Positions 26,987-64,000 of a DNA stretch of 64,000 bases are shown here, piece by piece. The stretch spans positions 5,863,524 through 5,927,523 of the forward strand of contig OY725488.1 of assembly GCA_963281255.1 (NCBI GenBank), written 5' to 3'. The notes beneath the pieces are model-generated. The model was not told the DNA's origin. It ran no database searches and worked only from the letters and a program-made list of their open reading frames with translations. The position numbers and the translations under genes are program-made. The number at the start of each line of letters is the position of its first letter. Position 1 is the stretch's first letter. The DNA comes from Aphrocallistes beatrix (Eukaryota > Porifera > Hexactinellida > Sceptrulophora > Aphrocallistidae).

Positions 26987-28087
26987 TTCAAATATTCGAC
27001 GTAATTAGTAACGAAATGTGTTTGCACCCAAGTGAGATTGTAGAAATTAAATTCGGATAACTTCGCTGATTCGAAAAAATAAAATCGAAGAATAGAAGCG
27101 ATATCGGTTGAGATTTTCAAACAAGATTCGTTCGTAGTTCGTGAAATTTTCGAAAAAAAGTGAATGCACGTCAAAAGCCAATCTTTAGCTAAATTGATAA
27201 TAAAAGAATGAATTAATGGTTAAACGGTGTAGGAAGAAACTATATATTTGCGCAATGACCTTGCTTACTATAACCAGAAAGTATAATGGCGAAAAGTCTA
27301 CTTGGGCAGCAATGAAGATAACAGAATATGGTAGGATTCTTTGCTCGTAGTTCCAATAGCTGAATAGCTCTAGTAGGTAATCTCAAGATTCTCAAAGGGA
27401 TACGTGTATATTAGTTGAAAACAAGCTGTGCACCACAAAGCCTACAAAATTAAATGAATGGCTTGTCACAGCATTACGTGGCGCTAATTCAGCTAAATAA
27501 TTGTCTGAGTATTTAATTAATATTGGTCAATAACATGGTCAACCGTGTAAACAGCTACAATAATCAGTAATCGTATCTATCATAGAGCTACATACAGGGT
27601 TTATCATAAGTGTTGTCGGATATTATAATTGAATTTAAAACCCAGAAATGTCTATCATGTAGTATACATTTTAAATTTATGCAATCTCCTCTACTCTCTA
27701 TTACTGAATCAATACGATTAAGCGCATACATTCGGATCAATGCTTGCTCAAGCCTTTTTACTTGAAAAAACAGGTGTTCGATTTTAGTAGCATTCTCCAT
27801 TTGACTGACACAAGTTCACCAGAATACTAAGCAATACCGAACTAATAAATGAAGACTACCTTATACAGTGAGCTATTTAGAAGTAAGTAGCGCATGCGCT
27901 ACATTTGAGTAGCGCATGCGCTGTATTTGAACTTCGGCATTTTTGCTAATGAAGGTGAAAGAAATGAATGTGAAGGCGGAACAATTCTAAATATAAAGTT
28001 GAATTAAAGAGACTTATATTTCCTAGTTGATTTTGACAAGACGGGTGAAAAGGCTGGTTAAATAATAGTCTGCAAATTAAAAGCCTG
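26987..28087. other. gene-free stretch upstream of the pseudokinase-Kelch gene
   Basis: It probably contains the gene's 5' region. Apart from the paired palindrome at 27,889-27,922, no gene or repeat was recognised. The short frames here are not convincing. Confidence 0.45.
27889..27922. promoter_or_regulatory. pair of NRF-1-like palindromes
   Basis: AGCGCATGCGCT occurs twice, at 27,889-27,900 and 27,911-27,922, with 22 bases between starts (about two helical turns). The core GCGCATGCGC fits the NRF-1 consensus YGCGCAYGCGCR. The pair lies in AT-rich DNA, 0.9 kb upstream of the pseudokinase-Kelch start. Function is inferred. Confidence 0.45.
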
Positions 28088-35286: not shown

Positions 35287-38200
35287 TCAGTAGTAACTGC
35301 TCCTAGTTTTAACTTTGTTCTTTGAAACTACAGTCCATTCTGAATCAGAATTTCGTTCCGCCCCTTCCGATTCCTTTCTTTTGTCACTATCCTTCGCCTT
35401 ATTTTCCATATTTTCTGCGACACGATCACCCTTCTTGTCATCCCTCCTCACCTCTTTGTCATTCTGCTCCCATGACCTATCCTCTCTTCTGACATAATAG
35501 TTTTTCTTGTCTTCCCTTTGAAATCCCCTCTCATCACCTCTCCGAAAACCTCTATCACTATCCCGACGATATTCCCTCTCATTATCCTGACGATATTCCC
35601 CCTCATTGTCACGACGATACTCCTTCTCATTGTCACGGCGATACTCCTTCTCATTGTCACGACGATACTCCCCCTCATTGTCACGGCGATACTCCTTCTC
35701 ATTGTCACGACGATACTCCTTCTCATTGTCACGACGATACTCCTTCTCATTGTCACGGCGATACTCCTTCTCATTGTCACGACGATACTCCTTCTCATTG
35801 TCACGACGATGCTCCTTCTCATTGTCACGACGATACTCCTTCTCATTGTCACGACGATATTCCCTATTATTATCGCGACGATATTCCCTATCATAATCTC
35901 GTGTTTGTTTTTTTCGGTCTCTATAATATCCCTTGCGATCTTCCCTCCCACCCCTCGCCTCTCTACGCGTGTAACTATCTCGCCGAGATAGCTCTCGGCT
36001 GCCTCTGTATGACTTTTGGGAGGAAGAGTCTACCGAAGTGCTGTCACTGCTGTACTGATGGGTGTCTTCTCTCGGACTACGTCCATTCTGCACACCTCCC
36101 ACTGCACTCAAGATGTGATCTTCCCTGCTACTGGTGCTCATGTTATCATCATTATTACCCTCTACGTGAATTTCCACACTCTCAGTTCTGATACCTGTGC
36201 TAAAGGGAGTAGTGGTAGAATTTCGATGTGGGGTCTTTTCTGGGGAAAGCATATTACTTTTAACCGGTAAGGAGAACCGTTTGTTGTACGGCCGTCTGTT
36301 GACCGAAGGGGAAATGGGTCGGTATGAATTTGAGTTTGAACCGCGGAACGGAGGATTTGATGGATTAGGGGTGCGAGGGGAAGAGAACTGGGTGTTTAAG
36401 TTGGCGGGGGAGGAGGGGCGGCTAGTAGAAGACAAGCGCGGAGAGATGTGGGAGAGGCTGGACTGAGAGCGGAAAGAGGAATTCGGGTGGAGACTGCTCG
36501 GACTGTTGTTGAAGTTGGGCATCGGACCAGCAATGACGATTGTCTTCGGACAAGTCTGGCTGGAGATCATCCTAGCTAGACTCCCGGGGCCTTTATTGGC
36601 CCAGTCTCCTTTCAGTGCAGGGCCGTTGAAGTCCTTCAAACTAGAGGAAGAGTTGCGAGGAATGTCGTTCGAGCAGAATTCGAATGTGTTGGCGGAGAGA
36701 GAGGAAACGCTCTTGAGAGGATGCTGGTAGTCTGAACCTGAGAGTGAGTTCTGGGGCGTGATAGCCGTTGTGCTAGTGGATTTGATTCTGAGCTCGACTT
36801 TGCACTCAACAGGTTTCCCGCCTATCTCAGGGGTAAACAGATAGTCAACATCTACAGGTGTCACAACGATGAGATCGTCAAAGTTGACCTTACACTCCAC
36901 CATCCCCGGAGTGTCCACAACTAGCCACTTATTCATGACGAATGGCGGTCTATTCAGTTCGATCTGCATATTCTTCTCGTTGAGATTGAATGTTATCGAC
37001 TGTACAGTGGGAATAGCACACTCGTCTCCATCCAGCTCCAGGTACAGCTTCCAACGGTTCTCCTTAGGAATGTCAGGATTGGGGCGGCATATATTCCCGA
37101 ATATGAGCACCAGCTCTGCCAACTTCAGCGTCTGCTGGTGCATCAGTAGAGGCGTGGTTTCGATGACAGTCGCCGCGAGGGGAGGGAAATTCATCAGACT
37201 CTGGTTGGACTCTCGTAGCTCCTTGATAGCGTCCAGGAGGTCTATCCTCTGCCCGAGCCCGGTGATGTTCATCTTAACCAGGTCTTCCTCTCCGAGCAGC
37301 TTGAGGGCTTTCCCGTCAATGCTCTCCGCATAGAAGCGGTTAGCCAGCTCGATGAACTGATCCTCCAGCTCATCTCCGTCCCCCTTCCTCAGCTCCTTGA
37401 CCCACTGGTACACCTGGCGCGGGGTCCACTTCTCCAGGGAGTGGTAGGTGCTGCGCGACTGCTGGCGATGTTCCTTCTGCCGCAGCATCTTCTCCTTTAT
37501 CATCAGCTGTCGCTCCCAGATCTGAAGCTGTTTCTCCTTATCGGTTAGCTCGTTTCCCTGCTTCATGAGTTTCTCATTCTTGTTTCCGATGTCCACTTGC
37601 CATTTTCCAGGATTATCTAAAAAGACGGCCGTCTTTTTCTCCAGGTCTTTATCTTGCTTCAAGTCCTCCAGGTTCTTCACGAGGAATTGGAAGTCAGGTC
37701 GCTCTTTAGGATTCTCTTTCCAGCAGGACTGAATCAATACTTTGAATTTGTGCGGGCATTCCGCAGGGAGATGCGGTCTCTCTCCTTTCATGGCGACCAG
37801 CCAGGCCACCTGGAGATTCTCCAAGCTGTGGTAGGGCACCTTACAAGTCAAAAGTTCCCAGAAAACGATGGCGAACGAGTAAGTGTCCGATGCTTCAGTC
37901 ACCATAGACTCCTTTATCACCTCTGGAGCCATCCATGCCATCGTCCCTGCAATCGTGCTGGCCTCCTTCAGTGTGTTCTGTTGGAATTTGGAAGATCCGA
38001 AATCGCATAATTTGCAAGAAAGCTTCGAATTGATGACAACATTCTTAGACTTGAGGTCTCTGTGAATAACAGTTTGAGGCGCCTGGAAATGAAGGTATTC
38101 CATACCTCTTGCGATGTCCAGTGCCCACATCACGACGCGTCCATAGTCCAGCCTCTGATTCAGACCATTCTTCTTGCCCAAGTAATCGTAAAGAGATCCG

Positions 38201-38454
38201 AATTCTGCAATTTCTGTCACTATCCCATATCCGTTATTGTCATTTACTATCCCGAAGAATTGGATGACATTCCTATGTCTAAGAGAGGTGAGTACTTGTA
38301 CCTCTCTGTCTTCAGGGTTCAGTGTAGGCAAACGCTTGATGGCCACATCCTTACTCTTGGTTTTCCAATGTGCACGCATTACAGTGCCAAACGTGCCCGC
38401 CCCGATAGGACCCAAGTAGTCGAACTCTTCCTGCGTGAGATGGAAGAAGGTCAT
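35287..38454 (-). CDS. ZAK/MLTK-type MAP3K, 1055 aa, with C-terminal RRDNEKEY repeats
   Basis: One frame. Kinase domain ~10-270: GAGTFGTV glycine loop, VAIKRL Lys, HRDLKSKNVVI, DFGSSK and APE all intact, so an active Ser/Thr kinase of the mixed-lineage type. A leucine-zipper-like coil follows (~300-345), then a SAM domain (~352-425, WTPRQVYQWVKEL). Order and spacing fit ZAK (MAP3K20), which activates JNK and p38 and in vertebrates senses stalled ribosomes. Residues ~430-580 are probably globular, in the place of ZAK's post-SAM region. Ser/Pro-rich text (~600-830) comes next. The tail has about fourteen 8-residue units (YRRDNEKE) of alternating charge, encoded by a 24-bp minisatellite, and ends EWTVVSKNKVKTRSSYY. 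Vertebrate ZAK-alpha is about 800 residues. The repeat tail is unusual. Confidence 0.88.
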   Translation of the reverse strand: MTFFHLTQEEFDYLGPIGAGTFGTVMRAHWKTKSKDVAIKRLPTLNPEDREVQVLTSLRHRNVIQFFGIVNDNNGYGIVTEIAEFGSLYDYLGKKNGLNQRLDYGRVVMWALDIARGMEYLHFQAPQTVIHRDLKSKNVVINSKLSCKLCDFGSSKFQQNTLKEASTIAGTMAWMAPEVIKESMVTEASDTYSFAIVFWELLTCKVPYHSLENLQVAWLVAMKGERPHLPAECPHKFKVLIQSCWKENPKERPDFQFLVKNLEDLKQDKDLEKKTAVFLDNPGKWQVDIGNKNEKLMKQGNELTDKEKQLQIWERQLMIKEKMLRQKEHRQQSRSTYHSLEKWTPRQVYQWVKELRKGDGDELEDQFIELANRFYAESIDGKALKLLGEEDLVKMNITGLGQRIDLLDAIKELRESNQSLMNFPPLAATVIETTPLLMHQQTLKLAELVLIFGNICRPNPDIPKENRWKLYLELDGDECAIPTVQSITFNLNEKNMQIELNRPPFVMNKWLVVDTPGMVECKVNFDDLIVVTPVDVDYLFTPEIGGKPVECKVELRIKSTSTTAITPQNSLSGSDYQHPLKSVSSLSANTFEFCSNDIPRNSSSSLKDFNGPALKGDWANKGPGSLARMISSQTCPKTIVIAGPMPNFNNSPSSLHPNSSFRSQSSLSHISPRLSSTSRPSSPANLNTQFSSPRTPNPSNPPFRGSNSNSYRPISPSVNRRPYNKRFSLPVKSNMLSPEKTPHRNSTTTPFSTGIRTESVEIHVEGNNDDNMSTSSREDHILSAVGGVQNGRSPREDTHQYSSDSTSVDSSSQKSYRGSRELSRRDSYTRREARGGREDRKGYYRDRKKQTRDYDREYRRDNNREYRRDNEKEYRRDNEKEHRRDNEKEYRRDNEKEYRRDNEKEYRRDNEKEYRRDNEKEYRRDNEGEYRRDNEKEYRRDNEKEYRRDNEGEYRQDNEREYRRDSDRGFRRGDERGFQREDKKNYYVRREDRSWEQNDKEVRRDDKKGDRVAENMENKAKDSDKRKESEGAERNSDSEWTVVSKNKVKTRSSYY
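35560..35900 (-). repeat. 24-bp coding minisatellite in the ZAK-like gene
   Basis: About fourteen direct units of TCATTGTCACGACGATACTC plus four bases (CTTC) lie in tandem. The 24-base period keeps the frame as the octapeptide YRRDNEKE. Units differ by synonymous or mild changes (cggcgatac/cgacgatac; CTTC to CCCC giving E to G). Frames seen on the other strand here are by-products. Confidence 0.95.
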
Positions 38455-38703
38455 GGCCTTAGTTCGAGATTATTTGAAATTCTTAGACACTCTGATAGCG
38501 GGCTTAGGTCATGAGCTAATTACAAAACTATATATACGACCTGTAGAAACTCTAAAAGTCAGTTTATAATAAAAGCTGATATCTCAAAAGTATAGATGAG
38601 TAAGTAATTAATTAAGGGCCACAGAGGCTAGAGAATATACAAAATATACAAGGAAGCCTGCTAGAGACTAATAAAATTTCACTGTGTCTTGTTGGTCTAG
38701 TCA

Positions 38704-44684: not shown

Positions 44685-47285
44685 TTAGTTCTCCTTGCCA
44701 AGAGGTCGTGAGAGAAACACATCGATCAATTTGTCTCCAGATTCTTTATAAGATGCAATCGGTGTCTTCTGAAAATGTTGTATAATTTCGCTGAGAGCAT
44801 GCACGCGGAAATTCTCACCAATACAATACCAGGTATCATCCTGTTTAATGTTGAAGTGATGGATGCGGTAGTGGTAGCGCATCGAGAGCACAAGCTCTCC
44901 TTCTCGATTGGGACTCTCGCGAAAAATGAATTCTCCTTGCTTGGCCCTTTTAAGCAAGAGGACTTCACAATCCTTGCGAGACATCTTCCCCCACAGATAC
45001 TGCTCCAGGTCAGACTTCTTGGCTTGTAGCTTCGAGTGGTCTCTTGGCATAGGGTGCACAGGCGTGGTCCCCCTGGGGGACTTCGATCTGCAGGGCACTC
45101 CGGGAACGTCGGGAACATTATTGGAGGCTGGAGGAGAGTGAACGGCAGGAGTAGTGATTGACTTGGAAATGCTCCGTGAAGGCGGAACGGGCAGGGGGCC
45201 TCTCTCTGAGTTGGTCAGCTTACGGGCGGGCGCTGTAGGAAGTGCAGGGGGATCAAGGGGAGACCTTTGGGAGAGGTCTGGGGAAGGTGTCTTGTTGGGA
45301 ATGATAGCGGGAGTGGTCTTGTTCGGAGTGACCGATTTGGAAGGGCGAGTGGGTTTTATACTGGGGGGTGGCATTATTCCAGGTTTTTTCATCACGAGTG
45401 GTTTCCAATACTCAGAGGGAGTCCACCCTTCATGATCATTAACTCGCACGAAGAACCAGATCCCATCCTCACTCTTCTCTATCAGCATAGCTCTGTCTCC
45501 AGCCTTGAACGAAATGCAAGAGTCATTCTGAGCGCTGTACTCATCAATCGCTTCAAAAATTTTGCTGGAAGTTGGCGCCTGGTCAGGAATGGAGGTAGGC
45601 TGGCGGATAGAGAGGTGTGAAGTACGGTGCTTCGCGAACGGAGCACTGATCGCGTACTCGTTCACGTCTTCCACATTGATCGGGTCTATTGAGGGCATCC
45701 AGTTGATGTAGTCTATCTCCCCGTCGTCTCTGGACGCGCTCCGTTTGTCTCGGTTCATTTTGATAGAGTTCCGGTCAGTCCCATTGATGGGTCGACTCAG
45801 GATGGTGGTGCGGTGAGAGCGCTCGAAGTTCATGTACTCATCAGGAAAGGAGGGAGTGCTAGGGGAGCGGTGGAGGCTGCTCTTGTTTTGCATCTCTTGC
45901 GGGTTTACGTATCTCCGGGGAGGCTTAGGCGGCTTGGGCAGCTTCTTATTCGCTGGAGGGAAGAGAGAGTTCGACAGATTTATCCCCTTCACCAGTTCAT
46001 CGGACATCTCGTAGTTCATACCAACGTCAGGGTTGGCTTCAAGACTGATGTCTAGCATGTTCTGAATCATCTCGTCCAGCTGCTCCGCACTCTCCAGTTT
46101 CTTGTCACTCTTCTTGCTCTTCTTGACGTGTGCGTACTTGGCGCTGCTCTTCTTCAAAACTTCGCCTGGCAATTCGTCCAGGACTGAGTACACGGACACA
46201 ATCTGCTCCTTGCGTTTGAAGGTTCCTCTCCTTGGAGGGGGCCTGAAGGTGTTGGAGGGAGTGACATACAGCTCTCGATTACTATTCCTCTCTAGGGTCT
46301 CCTTCCTCTGCTTGTGCTCGGATTCTGTCAGATAGAGAGATGGGACGATGCCAGTGGCTTCCCCTATCTTGACTCGCCACCATCCATCATAAGACTTGAA
46401 AATCACTTCCACTTTCTGATCTTTCTTCAGACTGAGTTCGTCAGGATTGTCTGCTTTGTAATCAGCATTCACGACGTAATGCTTGCAAGAGAAGTTCTCT
46501 ACCTTCTCCTGGTTCTTGATGCCCTCTAGCGGCTGTAGCAGGGAAGCGGGGAGGTAGCCTTGTTCCGTGTCTGAGAGGCAAAGCCACCAACCACTCAGTC
46601 GTCTCTCCAACACTTGCAGCTTTGAGCCGGCCGTAGCGGTGATCTGGTGCATATTGGCTGGATCGTAGTCTGCTATCGCGATGAACTCGGTTGGTTCGGG
46701 GTCCTGCTCGTCTTCAAATGAGTTATCAGATTGAATGGATTCCGAGGCGGGTTCTAGAGCCAGGTCGTCTGGCCAGAGGGTGAAGAACTTCGTCACGACG
46801 TCAGAACAGACTAATTCAGAAGGGAGTTTGAGAATATTCCCACAGAATTCCTCAAGTCGCTCCTTTCGTTTCTGGGCCACCTGTTTCACATTGAAACGCC
46901 CGATAGCTTTCCCCGGGAGAGTCGGCAGGATTGCTTCTCTTATTTCATTGCTGCTCCCCAATCCGACCAACAGGGCGTGATGTGTAATCAACTGCATTTG
47001 GAGCTCGAAGAAGTTGGAGTAGCGTCTGAAAACGCACAAGTTGCTACCACAGGACCAGCCGACCACCACTTCGTACGCGTAGTGCTTGCTTGGTTCTCGT
47101 CGCTTGTGAATCTGCTTCACCTCGAGGGAGACAACGTGTCCTTCTGGGAGGACCTGGGCGTATATGTTGGAGGGAAGCTGCGGGGGAGGCAGCGGCTTTT
47201 TAATATGTGGAATTATTGATTGCGTTGCGGAGCACATCTTTCCACGAATTAATTTGAGTCCCTTGTTAACCTTGCAATGAGACAT
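44685..47285 (-). CDS. PX-SH3-SH3-SH3-SH2 adaptor protein, 866 aa
   Basis: One frame. A PX domain at ~50-172 (FRRYSNF at 86-92, the phosphoinositide-binding Arg-Arg-Tyr region). SH3-1 at ~200-255 (AIADYDPANMHQIT, SGWW) resembles the p47phox/Tks type. SH3-2 at ~269-322 (NADYKADNPDELSL, DGWW, GIVPSLYL). A Pro/Ser-rich linker with several PxxP motifs. SH3-3 at ~585-640 (AIDEYSAQNDSCISF). SH2 at ~765-860, with the phosphotyrosine Arg in FIFRES and WYCIGENFRVHALSEIIQHF like the Nck SH2. The order reads as a Tks/p47phox-like front and an Nck-like SH3/SH2 back. It should link phosphoinositide membranes, proline-rich partners and phosphotyrosine. Roles in actin or NADPH-oxidase control are inferred from families. 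Start at first ATG; no introns seen. Confidence 0.9.
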   Translation of the reverse strand: MSHCKVNKGLKLIRGKMCSATQSIIPHIKKPLPPPQLPSNIYAQVLPEGHVVSLEVKQIHKRREPSKHYAYEVVVGWSCGSNLCVFRRYSNFFELQMQLITHHALLVGLGSSNEIREAILPTLPGKAIGRFNVKQVAQKRKERLEEFCGNILKLPSELVCSDVVTKFFTLWPDDLALEPASESIQSDNSFEDEQDPEPTEFIAIADYDPANMHQITATAGSKLQVLERRLSGWWLCLSDTEQGYLPASLLQPLEGIKNQEKVENFSCKHYVVNADYKADNPDELSLKKDQKVEVIFKSYDGWWRVKIGEATGIVPSLYLTESEHKQRKETLERNSNRELYVTPSNTFRPPPRRGTFKRKEQIVSVYSVLDELPGEVLKKSSAKYAHVKKSKKSDKKLESAEQLDEMIQNMLDISLEANPDVGMNYEMSDELVKGINLSNSLFPPANKKLPKPPKPPRRYVNPQEMQNKSSLHRSPSTPSFPDEYMNFERSHRTTILSRPINGTDRNSIKMNRDKRSASRDDGEIDYINWMPSIDPINVEDVNEYAISAPFAKHRTSHLSIRQPTSIPDQAPTSSKIFEAIDEYSAQNDSCISFKAGDRAMLIEKSEDGIWFFVRVNDHEGWTPSEYWKPLVMKKPGIMPPPSIKPTRPSKSVTPNKTTPAIIPNKTPSPDLSQRSPLDPPALPTAPARKLTNSERGPLPVPPSRSISKSITTPAVHSPPASNNVPDVPGVPCRSKSPRGTTPVHPMPRDHSKLQAKKSDLEQYLWGKMSRKDCEVLLLKRAKQGEFIFRESPNREGELVLSMRYHYRIHHFNIKQDDTWYCIGENFRVHALSEIIQHFQKTPIASYKESGDKLIDVFLSRPLGKEN

Positions 47286-49781
47286 GTAAAATACAATTGT
47301 TCAAAAATTCTGAATATTTTTATATGAAGACTTGAATAATAATATTGTAACATTTTGAATGAATTTATACTTAAAAACTGCCATGTTGACGAGATTCTAA
47401 ATCCATACAAAGTACATACAGATAAGTGCGTGAAGCAAATTTACTCCTAAATTAAACTGTTTACTATGAAACGTTGTATAATACTAATGATCCTGGCAGT
47501 TAATGGAATTGAATGAAGATTAAATGCTTCATACATTCTCTTCTAGATTCGTACATCATGTATTATTTCTGGAATGTAGAGCAAGGCAATTTCAAGCGAA
47601 CAACCTTTTACGGATTTGCCAGATGCAAGGTGTTGATAATTGTTTAGCTACAGTCAATTGCACAAGTCATAAATCCAGGGATTAATATCAAGTATTGAAG
47701 AGATTGAAAAATAATGAGTTAATTTAACGAGAAGTAATATTACGCTTCTGATCTCAATTAGGTTATTTAAACTGTCAAGGCAGCTGGGGGTAATCAAGTT
47801 CAAATTCGACAAAAAAATTTAAAAAATAGCATGTCAAGTAGAGATATTAATTCTATAACACATCTTATAAGGTTTAAATTGCAATCAAATAAAACAATCA
47901 AATAAAACAATCGTCCTTTTTTGGTAATATTTCTTAGTGAATTCAATTGTTTGCCTTTCGCGCAGACGCCTAGAAAAATCCTGATCCTCCTATTTAGTGG
48001 TCTAACTACAAGTGAGAGGATGCTAGTTCTAAAACTGTATCGCCTACAAGATTGGCATTCTACCGCATAGTTTCTCTCCGAATTGTGCTATCGTAGACTA
48101 CAGATTGGCTCATTCAATAAAATATTGTCAAACCTCCTAAAGGAAACATTTCACTTTTTGCCAATACCAAAACTATCTTATTAGTGGTTTTCAAAATATT
48201 ATCAACCCAAAAAATTACTCTCTAATTCAAGTCGGGTCAAGTTAAAGATCAACCCTATTACGAACTGCAAATTGCGTCCAGAAAACCGGTCTTTCACCAC
48301 CTTCCTCCCAATTAAAGAGGTTAATTTGAATGAGAAAATAATTTCTGAAATTTCAATCTCTCCCATTCCACACTTCCCCACTTATAGAGGTTCATTTGTA
48401 TGTAAACGAATAAAAATGACCTACATTTGCCCCACATACGTAGAGTGGTTCCCCAAATATAGAGACCCCACTTAAAGAGGTTCTACTGTAAAAGCTCCCA
48501 ATTCTTCGAGAACCATTCGCCCAGCTGTAGGGAAGCAGGAGATCCCTCCGAAGGCTAAAAATTTCGATGTCCCCTGAGACCAAACATGCACTGGCCAGAC
48601 CAATTAAATCACTGCTACCAATTATTAGAATGCTACATTCATCTCACATGATACAGACGTAAATGTACTTAGCAAGTTATCTAAATTAATCAATCTACCA
48701 AAGAATCCACAAGAATGCCTAAGGATTGAGGCTGATCTATGTTAAAACCTGCAGTCTTACTGCGGAAATCTTAACACGTTAACGGAACTTTTTGAACTGT
48801 CCGGATTAAAATGATTTTGCTGGAATAAATTTCAAGTTCTTTTTAAATGCAACATCGCTAATTTAATATGGGTAATGTGTGGCTATTAACTCAATACTAG
48901 GATACATAATGAAATTAATTAAATGTCCATCATCTGTTTGGGTTAATTACTTCTAGACGAAGTGTTTTCAGATCAATATTGAATCATCTCATTATCATCT
49001 GACAATTCAAATTTTGTTTCAAGAACAGTTTTTGTATAGTGTTTCAGGTCTGATATATTTCAGTTCTTACCCATAACGGAAGAAAACATATAGTACTGTA
49101 CTTCTGCAAAAATTAGTACTTATGGTGTTTAAAAGCTTTTAACCATATCTGGAAATATTTTTTACAGAATAGATTAAACACTTTCAATAGCTGAGATATT
49201 TTTATCAAGTACAGTCAGGGTTGCATACTTATTATGAACTCGTTTTTAATATGAACATTCGTTTATTATGAACTACGTAGTTCTAATATGTAGCTAAAGC
49301 TTAATTCGTGAAATGTCTACTGGAGGATGCCAGTTTCGTTTATTTGTAGTTAATCCTAAGTATAATTTGTCTTTTGATTTGCAAAACAAATATTCTAGCA
49401 AGGATCAGTCATCCATTCAGCGAAATTAGATCTAGTCCGAACTGGAACTAAAATATTTTCACGAAAACTGTACCATAAGCTTTATTGTTAAGTAATATAT
49501 CAATTAAGATTAGGTATAATTTGTCTATAAAATATTTAATAACATCTAACACAACCTGAACAGATTAATGAATGCATGTAATGGATAAGTATTAAAAATT
49601 AATCCATTTTTGTCGAGTCGTTTGGGGTTGATCCAAACGTTCCATGTGCTTGCACATTTAGATCTAACTACTAAGACTTCTTTTATTTGAAAATAAGAAG
49701 GATTATTTGTGCTGTTATTCAGCATTCCAATTGCCTGTATCCCACGATTTATTTGATGAGGTGGGTCATATGTATTAGGTG
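47286..49781. other. gene-free stretch upstream of the PX-SH3-SH2 gene
   Basis: It contains a decayed TA-type element (about 48,127-48,491) whose right end is ACTTAAAGAGGTTCTACTGT, with related AAAGAGGTT blocks at 48,315 and 48,387, and a partial CAGTCAGGGTTGCATACTTA element end at 49,212. The rest is AT-rich with no visible gene. The 86-residue minus frame at 49,546 has no support. Confidence 0.5.
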
Positions 49782-53625: not shown

Positions 53626-53825
53626 ACGCAAAATCAATTGTATGATTTTCAAATTTATGACAAATTAATGTCTACTTCAATAACAAATAACTATTAACGA
53701 ATAAATGTGGAATATAGTGAAAATCTAACAAAACGAACTAAAGTAATAAGAATTGTTCTAAGAGACAGGGGTGGGTGAGATGTAGAGAGTCAGGTAGTGC
53801 CGAGTTGGAAATGCCGAGTTGAAGA

Positions 53826-56420
53826 GTGCCAGTCTTCGAAGTTAAGAGTTCATGTTCACACGATCAGAGAAAGTACCAGAAGAAGAAGAAGAAGGAAGAA
53901 CCGTTGGATGGAACGAGGCCTACACCTCTCCATATTCCCGCACCCCTCTGGGATGCTGCACACGGGACACGTGCATGTGTACACCATCAGCAACACATTG
54001 GCACGGACCACAGGGCTAGAGGATCACACGTGCTACATCCCATGGGGTGGGATGCGTTCGGACTGCCATCAGAGAATGCTGCTATCGAGAGAGGATTGAG
54101 TCCAGCCGTGTGGACGCACTCTAATATCTCACAGATGCGAAGACAGTTGGATCAGCTGCACTTCCAGTTCGACTGGGAGAGAGAAGTGGTCACGTGTGCA
54201 CCGGACTACTACCGATGGACACAATGGCTGTTCATTCAGCTGTACCAACGAGGACTAGCCTACCAAAAGGAAGCCTACGTGAACTGGGATCCTGTGGACG
54301 AGACGGTGCTGGCCAACGAGCAGGTGGATGCTGAAGGGAGGTCGTGGCGGTCAGGTGCCAAGGTGGAGTGGCGACGCTTGAATCAGTGGTTCCTGCGTAT
54401 CACCCACTACAAGCGTGCACTGTTGGAGGGACTGGTCGGGCTCGAGTGGCCGGATAAGGTGAAGCAGATGCAGGCAAACTGGATAGGTCGATCCAGTGGT
54501 TATCTGCTGGATTTCCAGTTGAGGGAGGAAGGGGAGGGAGTGGGGGGAGGAGAGGAGAGGGTGGGTAAGATTAGAGTCTACACGACGAAGCCGGAGAAGG
54601 TGTTCGATGTTGCATTTCTTGCAGTCTCAGCTGAGCACGAGGTGAGTGAGAGGTACGGGAGTGAGGTTCTGGCGCCCATTCCTCTTAGCAGCAGCAGCAG
54701 CAGCAGCAGTAGCGGCAGCAGAGGCGAGAGTGTAGACGAGACAGGAGGAAAGCACAGTGAAGGTGTGAGGGGCTGCGTCCTGCCCGTCCGGGCTGTCCAC
54801 CCTATCACCGGTCAACTGTTGCCTGTGTTGAGGATGGACTATGTGCAGCAGACGGGCGGGACAGGAGCGATGATGGGTGTCCCGGCACTCAACAAAAGAG
54901 ATGCTCTCGTGGCAGACCGCTGGCACTGTGACATCCCCTGTCTCCTCTCCTCAGACCGAGCCCGTGTCCTGGCCCCGGGACACATGAACGGAATGAGTTG
55001 GGAGGAAGCGAAGACTGCTCTCCACTCGGAGGACTGGATCGAGGGGAAGGAGGAGTTCCGTCTACGAGACTGGCTCATTTCCCGTCAACGGTACTGGGGA
55101 TGTCCCATCCCAGTGGTGCACTGTCCATCTTGTGGCAGTGTTCCGGTGGAGGAGCAACAACTGCCTGTCCGACTTCCACCTGACCTCCACCTCACAGGTA
55201 GAGGTCACTCCCCGTTACGCACGTGTGAAGAGTTCCTCACCACTGTCTGTCCACGCTGTGGCAGCACGCACGCACGGCGTGAGACGGACACCATGGACAC
55301 CTTCATCGATTCGTCCTGGTACTATCTGCGCTACTGCGACCCACACAACTCAAGCGATCTTTGTCGAGCGGAGGAAGCACGTCGCTACCTCCCCGTGGAC
55401 ATCTACATTGGAGGGGTGGAGCATGCTGTACTGCACTTGCTGTACGCACGCTTCATCAGTCACTTCCTCCACGAGCTTGGAGTGACACCTCATCCGGAGC
55501 CTTTCACCCGACTGCTCACACAAGGCGTGGTGACGGGCAAGACGTACCGAGTGGTAGGCTCCCAGCGCTACCTCTCCCCTCAACAGGTGGAGGAGGAGGG
55601 AGGAGAAGGGGGCAAGCTGGTGGAGAAAGAGACACAACAACAAGTGGAGGTGTTCTGGGAGAAGATGTCCAAGTCTAGGTACAATGGGGTGAGTCCTCAG
55701 GCTATGGTGGAGAAGTACGGTGCAGACGTGGTCAGGTTGTTCCTGTTTCACAACGTATCTGTGTCACAGGATCTACAATGGGACGAGAAGAATATCTCTG
55801 CTCTCCTCCGATGGAAAGCGAGGTTGGAGGATCTGCTCTGCTCACACTCCCACCTCTACCACAACAGCCAGCGGCCACCCCAGGAGGCTGCCACGGGTGG
55901 AGAGGGAGAGGCAGCCTCTGCACTGCTGGCCATTGTCAGGAAGGCAGTGTCAATATCCACCACCTCCATGGAAAGCAGGTTCAACTTCAGTGTTATCATC
56001 ACCCAACTCATGAAACTAACCAAGGCTCTCCAGAGGTGTCGACAGGAGCTGTCAGGTAGCCAGGTCTACCATGACGCCCTGAAGGTCCTACTCGCCCTCA
56101 TGCACCCGATGGCTCCCCAAATCTCCATCCAGTTATGGAAGGAGTTAGGCGAGGAGGTTCACTCCTCTGGCAGCCCCATCAGCTGGCCAGACGTTGCAGT
56201 AAGCCAACAACAACACAGCCGAAACGATAGAGGGAGCACCACTGAGTACTTAGTCAAGTTTAATGACCGACGAGTTTGTTCCATCTCAGTATCCTCAACT
56301 GGAGGAGGTGCCGAACTTCAGGTGCGAGAAGTAGCCCTAGCCAACCCTCGGGTGCAGGACCTACTGAGGCAACATCAATCTGCAACTCAGGTAGTTATAA
56401 AGTCTAAACTGGTCACATGA
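53826..56420 (+). pseudogene. mitochondrial leucyl-tRNA synthetase, disrupted plus-strand copy
   Basis: This copy matches the minus-strand gene at 56,805-59,597. From about 54,010 to 56,310 the translation is identical and the DNA appears so where compared. The 5' part is diverged: the frame open from 53,826 has no ATG, and the HIGH-motif region is in another frame (PHPSGMLHTGH instead of PYPSGELHMGH). A one-base deletion (CACGGACCACAGG against CACGGTACCACAGG, near 54,006) separates it from the body. The 3' end differs too (GGGAELQVREVALANPRVQD; then VIKSKLVT). KMSKS is intact. As assembled it could not give a full enzyme. Either it is a pseudogene whose core was recently converted, or the core was wrongly copied during assembly. 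Confidence 0.8.
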
Positions 56421-56804: not shown

Positions 56805-59597
56805 TTATTTTGAAATCAAAACCAGTTTAGACTCTAGATTAACTACCTGAGTTGCAGATTGATGTTGCCTCAGTAGTTCCTGCACCCGGGGGTCGGCTAG
56901 GACTACTTCCCGCACCTGAAGTTCGGCATCTCCTCCAGTTGAGGATACTGAGATGGAACAAACTCGTCGGTCATTAAACTTGACTAAGTACTCAGTGGTG
57001 CTCCCTCTATCGTTTCGGCTGTGTTGTTGTTGGCTTACTGCAACGTCTGGCCAGCTGATGGGGCTGCCAGAGGAGTGAACCTCCTCGCCTAACTCCTTCC
57101 ATAACTGGATGGAGATTTGGGGAGCCATCGGGTGCATGAGGGCGAGTAGGACCTTCAGGGCGTCATGGTAGACCTGGCTACCTGACAGCTCCTGTCGACA
57201 CCTCTGGAGAGCCTTGGTTAGTTTCATGAGTTGGGTGATGATAACACTGAAGTTGAACCTGCTTTCCATGGAGGTGGTGGATATTGACACTGCCTTCCTG
57301 ACAATGGCCAGCAGTGCAGAGGCTGCCTCTCCCTCTCCACCCGTGGCAGCCTCCTGGGGTGGCCGCTGGCTGTTGTGGTAGAGGTGGGAGTGTGAGCAGA
57401 GCAGATCCTCCAACCTCGCTTTCCATCGGAGGAGAGCAGAGATATTCTTCTCGTCCCATTGTAGATCCTGTGACACAGATACGTTGTGAAACAGGAACAA
57501 CCTGACCACGTCTGCACCGTACTTCTCCACCATAGCCTGAGGACTCACCCCATTGTACCTAGACTTGGACATCTTCTCCCAGAACACCTCCACTTGTTGT
57601 TGTGTCTCTTTCTCCACCAGCTTGCCCCCTTCTCCTCCCTCCTCCTCCACCTGTTGAGGGGAGAGGTAGCGCTGGGAGCCTACCACTCGGTACGTCTTGC
57701 CCGTCACCACGCCTTGTGTGAGCAGTCGGGTGAAAGGCTCCGGATGAGGTGTCACTCCAAGCTCGTGGAGGAAGTGACTGATGAAGCGTGCGTACAGCAA
57801 GTGCAGTACAGCATGCTCCACCCCTCCAATGTAGATGTCCACGGGGAGGTAGCGACGTGCTTCCTCCGCTCGACAAAGATCGCTTGAGTTGTGTGGGTCG
57901 CAGTAGCGCAGATAGTACCAGGACGAATCGATGAAGGTGTCCATGGTGTCCGTCTCACGCCGTGCGTGCGTGCTGCCACAGCGTGGACAGACAGTGGTGA
58001 GGAACTCTTCACACGTGCGTAACGGGGAGTGACCTCTACCTGTGAGGTGGAGGTCAGGTGGAAGTCGGACAGGCAGTTGTTGCTCCTCCACCGGAACACT
58101 GCCACAAGATGGACAGTGCACCACTGGGATGGGACATCCCCAGTACCGTTGACGGGAAATGAGCCAGTCTCGTAGACGGAACTCCTCCTTCCCCTCGATC
58201 CAGTCCTCCGAGTGGAGAGCAGTCTTCGCTTCCTCCCAACTCATTCCGTTCATGTGTCCCGGGGCCAGGACACGGGCTCGGTCTGAGGAGAGGAGACAGG
58301 GGATGTCACAGTGCCAGCGGTCTGCCACGAGAGCATCTCTTTTGTTGAGTGCCGGGACACCCATCATCGCTCCTGTCCCGCCCGTCTGCTGCACATAGTC
58401 CATCCTCAACACAGGCAACAGTTGACCGGTGATAGGGTGGACAGCCCGGACGGGCAGGACGCAGCCCCTCACACCTTCACTGTGCTTTCCTCCTGTCTCG
58501 TCTACACTCTCGCCTCTGCTGCCGCTACTGCTGCTGCTGCTGCTGCTGCTAAGAGGAATGGGCGCCAGAACCTCACTCCCGTACCTCTCACTCACCTCGT
58601 GCTCAGCTGAGACTGCAAGAAATGCAACATCGAACACCTTCTCCGGCTTCGTCGTGTAGACTCTAATCTTACCCACCCTCTCCTCTCCTCCCCCCACTCC
58701 CTCCCCTTCCTCCCTCAACTGGAAATCCAGCAGATAACCACTGGATCGACCTATCCAGTTTGCCTGCATCTGCTTCACCTTATCCGGCCACTCGAGCCCG
58801 ACCAGTCCCTCCAACAGTGCACGCTTGTAGTGGGTGATACGCAGGAACCACTGATTCAAGCGTCGCCACTCCACCTTGGCACCTGACCGCCACGACCTCC
58901 CTTCAGCATCCACCTGCTCGTTGGCCAGCACCGTCTCGTCCACAGGATCCCAGTTCACGTAGGCTTCCTTTTGGTAGGCTAGTCCTCGTTGGTACAGCTG
59001 AATGAACAGCCATTGTGTCCATCGGTAGTAGTCCGGTGCACACGTGACCACTTCTCTCTCCCAGTCGAACTGGAAGTGCAGCTGATCCAACTGTCTTCGC
59101 ATCTGTGAGATATTAGAGTGCGTCCACACGGCTGGACTCAATCCTCTCTCGATAGCAGCATTCTCTGATGGCAGTCCGAACGCATCCCACCCCATGGGAT
59201 GTAGCACGTGTGATCCCCTAGCCCTGTGGTACCGTGCCAATGTGTCGCTGATGGTGTACACACGCACGTGTCCCATATGCAACTCCCCAGATGGATACGG
59301 GAACATGGAAAGGATGTAGACCCCCTTTCCCCCAACGGTTTCGACCCCCTTCTCTTCTTGGCACTTCTCTTGAATTGTGTGAAACATGGATGAACTCGGC
59401 TGTAGTAGGTTTCTGTTAGTGGGCACTAGTATTGGATGTTGGTTGCGGCAATGTGGCAATGATTGACGCAGCATGAACTTCATTAGACTGAAGTGATGTG
59501 TGTTTTGGAGACTCCCTGCACCCCATACTCCCTGAATCTGTCTTTGGTAGAGAACGTGGCGATACAGGGCAACGAGAGGAGTTGAGAGTTGATGCAC
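56805..59597 (-). CDS. lars2: mitochondrial leucyl-tRNA synthetase
   Basis: One frame of 930 residues, close to human LARS2 (903). It charges tRNA-Leu in the mitochondrial matrix. The N-terminal ~60 residues are basic and hydroxyl-rich with few acids (MHQLSTPLVALYRHVLYQRQ), as in a mitochondrial targeting peptide. The class-I motifs are intact: HMGH in PYPSGELHMGH (~106) and KMSKS (~674). GLPSENAAIERG and the DTMDTFIDSSWYYLRYCDP region are typical of bacterial/organellar LeuRS. An inserted editing-like region lies between, with a poly-Ser run (~358). The anticodon-binding helical domain is at the C-terminal end. A nearly identical inverted copy sits tail-to-tail at 53,826-56,420, but only this one keeps the start and the HIGH motif in frame. 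No introns. Confidence 0.95.
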   Translation of the reverse strand: MHQLSTPLVALYRHVLYQRQIQGVWGAGSLQNTHHFSLMKFMLRQSLPHCRNQHPILVPTNRNLLQPSSSMFHTIQEKCQEEKGVETVGGKGVYILSMFPYPSGELHMGHVRVYTISDTLARYHRARGSHVLHPMGWDAFGLPSENAAIERGLSPAVWTHSNISQMRRQLDQLHFQFDWEREVVTCAPDYYRWTQWLFIQLYQRGLAYQKEAYVNWDPVDETVLANEQVDAEGRSWRSGAKVEWRRLNQWFLRITHYKRALLEGLVGLEWPDKVKQMQANWIGRSSGYLLDFQLREEGEGVGGGEERVGKIRVYTTKPEKVFDVAFLAVSAEHEVSERYGSEVLAPIPLSSSSSSSSSGSRGESVDETGGKHSEGVRGCVLPVRAVHPITGQLLPVLRMDYVQQTGGTGAMMGVPALNKRDALVADRWHCDIPCLLSSDRARVLAPGHMNGMSWEEAKTALHSEDWIEGKEEFRLRDWLISRQRYWGCPIPVVHCPSCGSVPVEEQQLPVRLPPDLHLTGRGHSPLRTCEEFLTTVCPRCGSTHARRETDTMDTFIDSSWYYLRYCDPHNSSDLCRAEEARRYLPVDIYIGGVEHAVLHLLYARFISHFLHELGVTPHPEPFTRLLTQGVVTGKTYRVVGSQRYLSPQQVEEEGGEGGKLVEKETQQQVEVFWEKMSKSRYNGVSPQAMVEKYGADVVRLFLFHNVSVSQDLQWDEKNISALLRWKARLEDLLCSHSHLYHNSQRPPQEAATGGEGEAASALLAIVRKAVSISTTSMESRFNFSVIITQLMKLTKALQRCRQELSGSQVYHDALKVLLALMHPMAPQISIQLWKELGEEVHSSGSPISWPDVAVSQQQHSRNDRGSTTEYLVKFNDRRVCSISVSSTGGDAELQVREVVLADPRVQELLRQHQSATQVVNLESKLVLISK

Positions 59598-60611
59598 CCC
59601 TTGTGTAAGGGTGTAGGTGATATCAAATGGACTATCTACTGATATGTGTGAATTTAAACGTATACAAAATGCAATTGAGTACGATCATAAATAATTAGAT
59701 ACATGATAAAATAATCCAATAAGATGAGGTTTGATTAGAAGGCGATGTACATACTTTGCATGATAGTAAGAGTCAAGAAGAAGAAAATATTTGATTGGGT
59801 ATATGTAACTACGTATGTAGGATATTCTGTGTAGCATTTGTATAGTACGTAATTTTATGCAATTTAATTGGAATTGGGGTACGTTCTATTTATAGTTTGT
59901 ATCTCGAATTTGTATGACTTGTCTAAATGGGTTAATTAAATTAGTGTTGTTATAGCTAAGATCCTTTCGAATATTCTACATTCTACTTTCGAATATTCTA
60001 CATTGCCGTCGGAAGCTCATAAAAAGTGGTAAGGCCATTGCCATTATGTTATAATCAAAGTTATGAGACTCATTCACCTTATCGCCTATAGGACTAATGC
60101 AGTGTGGGGCATAAGTTCTGCCCCCAGCATAATTGTTTTTCCTCGACTCCCATAATAATGGCTAGATATTGTAGATAGAATATCTGAACGATTTCGTGAG
60201 AGTTTATCCAATCTAGAACCTTGAACTACAATTGGAAGACAAACTTTGTGAAAAAAAGACGCAGTTAAAATCGAGAATATGGATCCACTTATCTCTCTCG
60301 ACTCCCTACATTCTGGAGAAATTTAGCTCAGACATTTCCATCAAACATACAAAAGTTGTAGAGATAAATTTAGATTCATATCTGGATATAATGGCAAACA
60401 TTTGGTGATATGAAAGTGTCTGGTGTGGTATTGTCTAAATGTAGCTGATTTCAATTCGCCATTGAATTGTCAGCTACCTCTATAGAACTAAGTTCAATGG
60501 ATTTCTTTGAAAATTCAATTTTTTAACAAAAGATTTGGGCGCAATCCAGCCCCGAATACTACTGATGCTGAAGAGATAGTTGGGAAAGCAGTGGGTCTAT
60601 ACATCTGCTTT

Positions 60612-62233: not shown

Positions 62234-63961
62234 CTATAAGTTAGGTGAGAGAGGGAGTGGGTGAGAAGGTCTGTGCGAATTTATCGGGTTATTAGTCCTC
62301 ATTTCGATATTCTTTTTATGGGTATTCCAATTGTTGAAGTTCCTGAGTTTTCCAATCGTTTCAATTTGTTTCGCTTGTTGCTGTACTAGACCCGGATCGG
62401 GAAAGGTGAGGTTTAAGTTTGATATTTCCGTATCTTTAGGAGAGGTTGGAATATTGAAATGATCCCGACCAGTGCTATCCAGCTGATATCTCTTCGGCTC
62501 TTGTGAATCGTTGACAGTTTGGCGCACTTGATAGAGAGAAGAGTCGAACTTGACGTGGTTTCGCTTTATCCGCATCTTAGTCATCTGTTCATTCGAAGGA
62601 GAGCTGTTGCTCTTATTGGACGTATTCTCCAGCGAACAGCTGAACGAGAGCTGATGGTCTCTCTGCTTAATTCTATTCTTGTACTGAGTCTGAAAGAGGG
62701 GGCTCTGCTCCCAGTAAGAACTGCCGATCCCAGAGTCCCCCTCCAGTGAGTGGGTTGCCTGGAGTTTGTCAGATATCGAGTACATGTCTGAGAGCACGGG
62801 GGGAGCCGGGTCCTCCTGATAGTTCCCCAGGAGAACCTCTCTAACCGGGGAATGCGAGGGCGACTGCTGCAAGGACCGGGGATCCTCTGGACAGCAAACG
62901 GGGGAGGAGAGAATCGGGAGTATGGTGAGGCGACGGGGTGGAGGTGTCTTGGTATCCAAGAGGGGAGTAGAAGTGGCTTCGTACGACCTTGAGAGGGTTC
63001 GAAGGGGGGAATGTTGGCAGTAGGTGATGGGGGACATTGGGATAGGTTGATTAGATTGAGGCAACGAGTTCTCGTGCTCAGAAGCGGGTTTTGGAGTTGA
63101 GCATACTCCAGGACTTTCCTCTCCTTTTCTACTTACATTCTTCTGAGAAGTGATGGGGGACACACAGTTCTGTTGAAAAGTGATAGGGGAGACAGGGTTC
63201 TTCTGAAAGATAATAGGGGATACAGGATTTTGCTGAGACCTGATAGGGGATGCAGAGATCTCCTGAGGGATAATAGGGGATACAGGATTTTGCTGAGACC
63301 TGATAGGGGATGCAGAGATCTCCTGAGGGATGATGGGAGATACAGAGATCTCCTGAGGGATGATAGGAGATACAGAGATCTCTTGAGGGATGATGGGAGA
63401 TACAGAGATCTCCTGAGGGATGATGGGAGATACAGAGATCTCTTGAGGGATGATGGGAGATACAGAGATCTCCTGAGGGATGATGGGAGATACAGAGATC
63501 TCCTGAGGGATGATGGGAGAGACAGAGATCTCCTGAGGGATGATGGGAGATACAGAGATCTCCTGAGGGATGATGGGAGAGACACAGGGCAGGTCACCGA
63601 TTGAAGAATTAATATCTGAGCATTCCAATCTCCCAGACATAAGTGAGTAGAGGAGACCTGGGGTGGAAGGGGTTATGTCTAAGGAGGAGAAAGGGTGTCG
63701 TTTGATCGAAATTTTGCGCGACCTCCGCGACTTTTTTGACTTTGGCAAAGGATGTTTGATAGATTTCGCAGTTTTGGGTGTCTCTTGAGTATCTAAGAGA
63801 GTTGTGGAGCATGGGAAGGTTTGTCGGGGTAGAGCCTGTGTGGAGTTGGATCCGAAAATTGGAGTCTGCGACCAGGGAGCTGGGGATTCCAATAGACGAC
63901 GGCCGGAGCGGGGAATAGGAGAAGTGGGAGATTTTGAATGAAGACCTGGAGACCTGAACTG
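62234..63961 (-). CDS. Ser-Pro-rich protein with decapeptide repeats (5' end uncertain)
   Basis: The minus-strand frame ends at 62,234. It can be read upstream through VQVSRSSFKSPTSPIPRSGR to a strong 3' splice site (TTTTCCCATTGTACAG) near 63,961, so earlier exons probably lie beyond the window. I do not recognise the family. Near the start is a basic cluster (KSKKSRRSRKISIKR), a possible nuclear signal, then TPSTPGLLYSLM. Then come fifteen 10-residue units, nine of them identical VSPIIPQEIS and the rest variants (ASPIRSQQNP, VSPIIFQKNP), and a Ser/Pro-rich tail (many S-P and T-P sites, e.g. SPLRTL, STPLLDTK). Such density suggests a target of proline-directed kinases (CDK or MAPK). This is inference. 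No folded domain is visible. Confidence 0.7.
   Translation of the reverse strand, partial: QFRSPGLHSKSPTSPIPRSGRRLLESPAPWSQTPIFGSNSTQALPRQTFPCSTTLLDTQETPKTAKSIKHPLPKSKKSRRSRKISIKRHPFSSLDITPSTPGLLYSLMSGRLECSDINSSIGDLPCVSPIIPQEISVSPIIPQEISVSPIIPQEISVSPIIPQEISVSPIIPQEISVSPIIPQEISVSPIIPQEISVSPIIPQEISVSPIIPQEISASPIRSQQNPVSPIIPQEISASPIRSQQNPVSPIIFQKNPVSPITFQQNCVSPITSQKNVSRKGEESPGVCSTPKPASEHENSLPQSNQPIPMSPITYCQHSPLRTLSRSYEATSTPLLDTKTPPPRRLTILPILSSPVCCPEDPRSLQQSPSHSPVREVLLGNYQEDPAPPVLSDMYSISDKLQATHSLEGDSGIGSSYWEQSPLFQTQYKNRIKQRDHQLSFSCSLENTSNKSNSSPSNEQMTKMRIKRNHVKFDSSLYQVRQTVNDSQEPKRYQLDSTGRDHFNIPTSPKDTEISNLNLTFPDPGLVQQQAKQIETIGKLRNFNNWNTHKKNIEMRTNNPINSHRPSHPLPLSPNL
63130..63590 (-). repeat. 30-bp coding minisatellite, ~15 units
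   Basis: Units such as GAGATCTCCTGAGGGATGAT plus GGGAGATACA are tandem. They encode the SP-decapeptide repeats of the gene that spans them. The right-hand units are nearly identical, and those at the left edge (63,130-63,310) are more diverged, so expansion was probably at one side. Opposite-strand frames (RDLLRDDGRY) are by-products. Confidence 0.95.
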
Positions 63962-64000
63962 TACAATGGGAAAAGAGATGTTTTCACCTGAAGGTGCTGA

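Follow-up and report, generated by a model that had tools for sequence, protein, structure and literature searches.

A gene on the minus strand of the window, that is, the whole stretch of 64,000 nucleotides analysed here, joins, in one predicted protein of 866 aa, the membrane-lipid and docking domains typical of p47phox/Tks scaffolds to an SH2 domain of the kind that reads phosphotyrosine. Lipid/docking scaffolds and the reading of phosphotyrosine are usually divided between partner proteins. An earlier note on this DNA had placed a PX domain, three SH3 domains and a C-terminal SH2 in one open frame at 44685-47285, and both the coordinates and the order are confirmed by ORF reading and by a Pfam domain search of the kind it proposed (Table 1). 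The frame runs without a stop over 44685-47300 (871 open codons); the first ATG, at 47285, gives the 866-aa protein, and the second ATG is codon 17. All three domain types lie above their whole-protein cut-offs: PX with 53.9 bits (cut-off 21.6), SH3_1 with 100.3 bits over three stretches (cut-off 22.9) and SH2 with 54.3 bits (cut-off 21). Pfam SH3_3 and DUF7145 gave weak extra matches, both below cut-off. We think it rather probable that the protein is an organizer scaffold related to p47phox that resembles Tks/SH3PXD2 in its third SH3 and whose C-terminal SH2 acts as a built-in phosphotyrosine reader.

Table 1. Features of the gene and its 866-aa product, with positions in the window
Feature	Residues and motifs	Position	Strand	Evidence
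Coding sequence, one open frame, PX-SH3-SH3-SH3-SH2	866 aa + stop	44685..47285	-	ORF reading, Pfam, codon score
PX domain	46-176	46758..47150	-	Pfam PX 81-169; p47phox PX match; PX tree
SH3A	200-256; GWW 232-234	46518..46688	-	Pfam; p47phox alignment
SH3B	268-322; GWW 301-303; acidic DE 282-283	46320..46484	-	Pfam; p47phox alignment
Autoinhibitory-region-like segment NTFRPPPRRGTFKRK	345-359; core PPPRRGT 349-355	46209..46253	-	Motif match (PMC12730246)
Linker stretch with candidate pYxN sites	YVNP 459; YMNF 484; YINW 526	45699..45911	-	
SH3C	574-630	45396..45566	-	Pfam; PDB search
Pro/Ser-rich linker	640-745; PxxPxK/R at 645, 683, 699, 728	45051..45368	-	
SH2	759-866; FIFRES 786-791; Nck-alignable C-terminal extension	44688..45011	-	Pfam; PDB search; SH2 alignment

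The PX domain, the tandem SH3 pair and the oxidase parts of the genome

Residues 59-322, which span the PX domain and the first two SH3 domains (SH3A and SH3B), align collinearly with human p47phox (8wej_C; 126.8 bits, 6.9e-36, phmmer against PDB), and p47phox is the best PDB match. By this alignment, the p47phox/Tks signature claimed in the earlier note holds for the PX-SH3A-SH3B part. A PDB search with the PX domain alone also had p47phox at its top (8.5e-12), followed by p40phox, PI3K-C2alpha, Bem1, a designed CISK PX and NOXO1. Within the domain, FRRYS (86-90) and LPTLP (120-124) lie at what we take to be the basic pocket and PxxP loop positions.

The p47phox-related organizer family is described as having an N-terminal PX domain followed by one or more SH3 domains (PMC7663256), an order that is present here. 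For the tandem SH3 pair, the account in PMC12730246 names as signatures a GWW in both SH3s, an acidic pair in the second SH3, a PxxPhiL element (Phi being aromatic) at the end of the first SH3 and a short acidic inter-SH3 linker, and gives the autoinhibitory motif as [PAVIL]PPR[PR][^DE][^DE]. A GWW is found in both SH3A and SH3B, at 232 and 301, the double-acidic DE in SH3B, and the strong form of the motif, PPPRRGT, shortly C-terminal to SH3B. When the whole protein was shuffled 20000 times, 1.6% of the shuffles contained the strong motif; for shuffles of residues 323-573 the share was 0.6%. The aromatic residue of PxxPhiL is absent at the SH3A end, where PASLL (246-250) has Leu in its place, and the SH3A-SH3B linker is one residue off the p47phox length, with a mixed charge that is less acidic than in p47phox. 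Judged from these motifs, PPPRRGT, the GWW pair and the SH3B acidic pair support a clamp of the p47phox type.

Relatives were sought in the same genome (100.5 Mb in 28 contigs). Searched with the whole 866 aa, it returned only the protein itself at full length among the 16 matches listed, the next match being a Tks-like PX at 67.6 bits; in prokaryote and viral contigs there were 14 + 2 pattern matches and no relatives by tblastn. At least 21 Pfam PX hits (a lower bound, as the split PX on contig C14 is left out) and 62 SH2 hits were counted, and of these hits only the PX and the SH2 of this gene lie within 25 kb of each other, with 2 kb between them; 25.9 kb separates the next closest pair. 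The Tks-like locus, on contig C16, comprises L044, where one exon carries the PX and others SH3A and SH3B, and L047, a frame of 517 aa that holds four SH3 stretches and has an SH3 at its end, with no SH2 hit within 93 kb; these are exons at one locus, and their union in one transcript is putative. An RRM-type gene (U1-70K-like by eye) lies on the opposite strand between the Tks-like exons (L044, 2276-3124, plus strand) and is probably nested there.

Further organizer-type PX loci were found on C16 at 944 kb (L096; a 225-aa frame with a PX and no SH3 by eye) and on C14 at about 108-111 kb (L106; PX exons, then SH3 exons). A PX tree was built from 15 rows, with human p47phox and the C14 PX added to 13 sequences taken from the 21 Pfam PX hits. 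It places the window PX in the organizer group at 85/87, and in 84% of 200 bootstrap trees; the tree has long branches, no branch attains the 95/80 mark and the organizer group itself lies below it. The identity of the window PX is highest with the Tks-like PX of the genome (37%).

The protein could also be the working p47phox of the animal, that is, the organizer of a NOX2-type oxidase, with its SH2 aiming superoxide at tyrosine-phosphorylated sites. We consider this role possible but do not favour it, at odds that we would put as clearly unlikely. Besides p47phox being the best PDB match, it is favoured by the presence in the genome of a NOX2-like protein (L011; 569 aa, no EF-hand match), of two p22phox genes (L009 and L010) and of a p40phox-like PX-SH3-PB1 protein on contig C17. 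The human p22phox site has the core PPPRP in the account of PMC12730246. The tail of the L010 p22phox, PTEPPPRMDKN, is similar to the human site and carries Met and Asp at the two positions that call for Pro/Arg and a non-acidic residue, while the L009 p22phox has no PPPR; neither of the two tails contains the strong or the weak tandem-SH3 motif, which speaks against the oxidase role. The PTEPPPR tail was accordingly rejected as a conserved docking site, as it lies outside the published motif. Also against this role, no p67phox was recognised among the six PB1 hits of an exon-by-exon genome search, a search that is weak as a negative, and the other organizer-type loci of the genome could serve the oxidase instead. 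Because both p22phox tails are without the published docking motif, a Tks-type role in actin organization or adhesion is favoured over that of an oxidase organizer and appears somewhat likelier.

The p40phox-like gene (L046, 3239-4336, minus strand) is present here in a probable sponge genome; in the account of PMC2121648, p40phox appears in vertebrates and was detected in neither Ciona nor sea urchin.

The third SH3, the linkers and the Nck resemblance of the SH2

Among the best 60 of 170 PDB matches of the third SH3 (SH3C), p47phox is first by total score, with 45.4 bits summed over two SH3s and a best single value of 28.0, and the best single-domain matches are myosin IB (35.1), Tks5 (34.5 and 33.7) and Abl (30.3); no Nck SH3 is found among these 60. 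In the linker that precedes SH3C, YVNP, YMNF and YINW are, from the name of the motif, presumably possible Grb2-type pYxN sites. Asn stands at +2 of three of the eight Tyr in residues 323-573, and three or more YxN are seen in 1.3% of 20000 shuffles, for a pattern that was picked post hoc.

The SH2 domain retains the phosphotyrosine Arg, as the earlier note had read from FIFRES: R789 lies in a pocket column that is invariant in 24/24 aligned SH2s, the window SH2 included, chosen from the 62 SH2 hits. By the usual nomenclature, we take the domain to have the alphaA2 Arg and the betaD4 His as well. Its best single-SH2 match among the best 60 of 193 in PDB is Nck1/2 (52.2 bits), followed by RasGAP (48.1); SHP2 comes first at 63.4 bits as the sum of two SH2s, and the single-SH2 entry 4jeg scores 39.3. 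For comparison, 56 SH2 rows were assembled, five of them human and 51 from the genome itself (drawn from 73 profile hits, with repeats and pieces shorter than about 60 aa dropped). In pairwise comparison with the window SH2, human Nck1 scores 51.1, the SHP2-like C-SH2 of the same genome 38.9 and the human SHP2 C-SH2 37.5, in a set where only five rows are human and other families could outscore Nck. The Nck SH2 of the same genome gives 33.1 bits, behind five others besides human Nck1.

In a tree of the same 56 rows (95 columns), the window SH2 has no supported placement, and the genome Nck and human Nck1 are joined at 94/79. Constraining the window SH2 into the Nck clade improved on the free search by 4.79 log units (p-AU 0.633), whereas constraining it with human Nck1 alone was 1.28 log units worse (p 0.466) and with the SHP2 C-SH2 19.5 log units worse (p 0.169); none of the three constraints is rejected. 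The exact sister of the window SH2 is the two Nck in at least 31 of 300 bootstrap trees and human Nck1 alone in at least four of 300, both counts being lower bounds with the trees treated as rooted per file. Only the SH2 part of the protein thus appears Nck-like, by pairwise score, and its Nck origin is putative. The Nck features announced in the earlier note are therefore retained for the SH2 pairwise score and not for SH3A and SH3B, which are p47phox-like, nor for a Nck grouping, which bootstrap does not support. Of the separate PX and SH2 trees that it called for, the former gave the organizer group and the latter no supported position.

A Nck-like actin adaptor that gained a PX domain secondarily, with its SH3s acting like those of Nck, would account for the order of three SH3s followed by an SH2 and for Nck1/2 being the best single SH2 match. 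We hold this for very improbable, as p47phox shows the PX, both tandem SH3s with their spacing and the PPPRR motif that follows in the same linear arrangement, and as the genome has a separate Nck on contig C18 with three SH3s and an SH2 in one frame (L045; 332 aa from the Met used).

Integrity of the gene and its genomic setting

Codon scoring of the 866-aa frame was carried out in nine segments, with residues 257-265 left out. Frame 0 is free of stops in all nine and has the top codon score in eight; only in the Pro-rich linker 631-760 does it fall short, with -0.08 against -0.14 and -0.06 for the other two frames. In this linker frame 0 is open and the other frames carry five and four stops, and the stretch stays stop-free in 2.65% of 2000 base shuffles. 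GTRAG occurs once in residues 631-765, at 688, and a scan of the whole ORF found no GTRAGT. An intron between SH3C and SH2, a less probable alternative, was judged unneeded. A single exon is the simplest reading of the gene. That the PX-SH3 and SH2 parts belong to two transcripts, or were brought together by an assembly join, is suggested by the weak codon signal of the linker and is highly improbable, given that the SH2 follows in the same frame, open through the linker and all 866 codons, that the linker has a single GTRAG and that the genome has further long one-frame genes.

Single-frame genes in this genome include Nck, the p40phox-like, NOX2-like and p22phox genes and several genes of the window. 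The mitochondrial COX1 (contig C28) has 11 in-frame TGA codons, read as Trp, and AGA codons at sites where Ser is expected, for example in NNISFWLLPP; an AGA=Ser code is common to glass sponges and bilaterians. The 80 Mb genome of Aphrocallistes vastus is reported to have 19,578 genes, with 12,409 transcripts of a single exon, and 2,432 genes that are nested (PMC10282587), and the one-frame and nested-gene anatomy seen here resembles that account. By its mitochondrial code the genome is very unlikely to be that of a vertebrate, the group with which the earlier note had compared the protein. Together with the genome size of 100 Mb and the many one-frame genes, the code points to a glass sponge as the probable source, a bilaterian being less likely.

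Other genes of the window deserve a brief mention. A leucyl-tRNA-synthetase-like gene (by eye) occurs in two copies in inverted orientation, at 53823-56420 (plus strand) and 56805-59684 (minus strand); the copies are 97.8% identical over 2.6 kb, and the plus-strand copy is without the 5' part of the minus-strand frame. On the minus strand lie a one-frame kinase with a SAM domain (35290-38469; MLK/ZAK-like by eye), which has roughly a dozen YRRDNEKE-type repeats near its C-terminus, a protein kinase with Kelch repeats in one 794-aa frame (24623-27004), and a frame with a run of SPIIPQEISV repeats and no Pfam match at 1e-5 (62237-64000).

Proposed function and place in the organizer family

The function of the protein would follow from its family membership. 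At rest, PPPRRGT would lie in the SH3A-SH3B groove and the PX domain would be covered. Phosphorylation near T355, whose context is basic (RRGTFKRK), may open this clamp, after which the PX domain would be available to phosphoinositides and the SH3s to proline-rich partners, and the SH2 would fix the scaffold onto a tyrosine-phosphorylated receptor or scaffold. The idea of the earlier note that one adaptor could couple phosphoinositides, proline-rich partners and phosphotyrosine is thus supported at the level of the domain order, the function being predicted by analogy. Mammalian Tks5 recruits Nck1/2, acts jointly with Nck in invadopodia and has been linked to local oxidant production there (PMC8391121); it thereby acquires its phosphotyrosine reader from a second protein, whereas a single chain holds both parts here; in the account of PMC7663256, it binds GRB2 and NCK, and its PX docks on membranes. 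Tentatively, and with more doubt than confidence, the protein may be a natural fusion (a Rosetta-stone protein) that unites a Tks-type scaffold with a phosphotyrosine reader of the Nck type. It would have arisen, or been retained, in a sponge lineage where separate Tks-like and Nck genes also persist, and would couple tyrosine-kinase signals to a phosphoinositide-gated actin or superoxide machinery.

With Tks4/Tks5 (SH3PXD2B/A), as described in PMC7663256 and PMC12730246, the protein has in common the N-terminal PX, the tandem SH3A-SH3B pair, a PPRR-type autoregulatory segment and a further SH3. Tks4/Tks5 have four or five SH3s (PMC7663256), whereas three and a terminal SH2 are present here, and, in contrast to Tks4/5 in the account of PMC12730246, position 6 of the motif is not acidic in PPPRRGT. 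The collinear PX-SH3-SH3 and an autoinhibitory motif whose core is followed by a phosphorylatable residue are shared with p47phox (NCF1), from which the protein differs by the third SH3, the SH2, about 45 residues N-terminal to the PX and the absence of a fitting docking motif in the two p22phox of the genome. Nck1/Nck2 share the three SH3s followed by an SH2, the latter being the best single PDB match with its C-terminal extension aligned; they differ in that here a PX is present, SH3A and SH3B are p47phox-like, the linkers are long and the SH2s are not joined with support.

The p47phox-like proteins of Monosiga and Nematostella are described as having more in common with SH3PXD2 than with vertebrate p47phox and NOXO1 (PMC2121648) and are early members of the organizer family, like the 866-aa protein; the term SH2 does not occur in that paper. 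No PX-SH3-SH2 protein was recognised among the papers listed on this domain architecture and on the early-animal organizer family, a scope that covers the literature and no eukaryotic protein database, and further sponges or protists may have the same order in genes that are as yet unannotated. As far as this literature goes, the protein would be a previously undescribed variant within the p47phox-related organizer family, as judged from its predicted sequence. If this is true, it would be independent evidence that coupling of the Tks5-Nck type goes far back or was favoured by selection on more than one occasion. It would also offer a compact single protein in which phosphotyrosine, phosphoinositides and autoinhibition can be tested in combination, and would enlarge the set of early animals in which NOX2-, p22phox- and p40phox-like parts occur.
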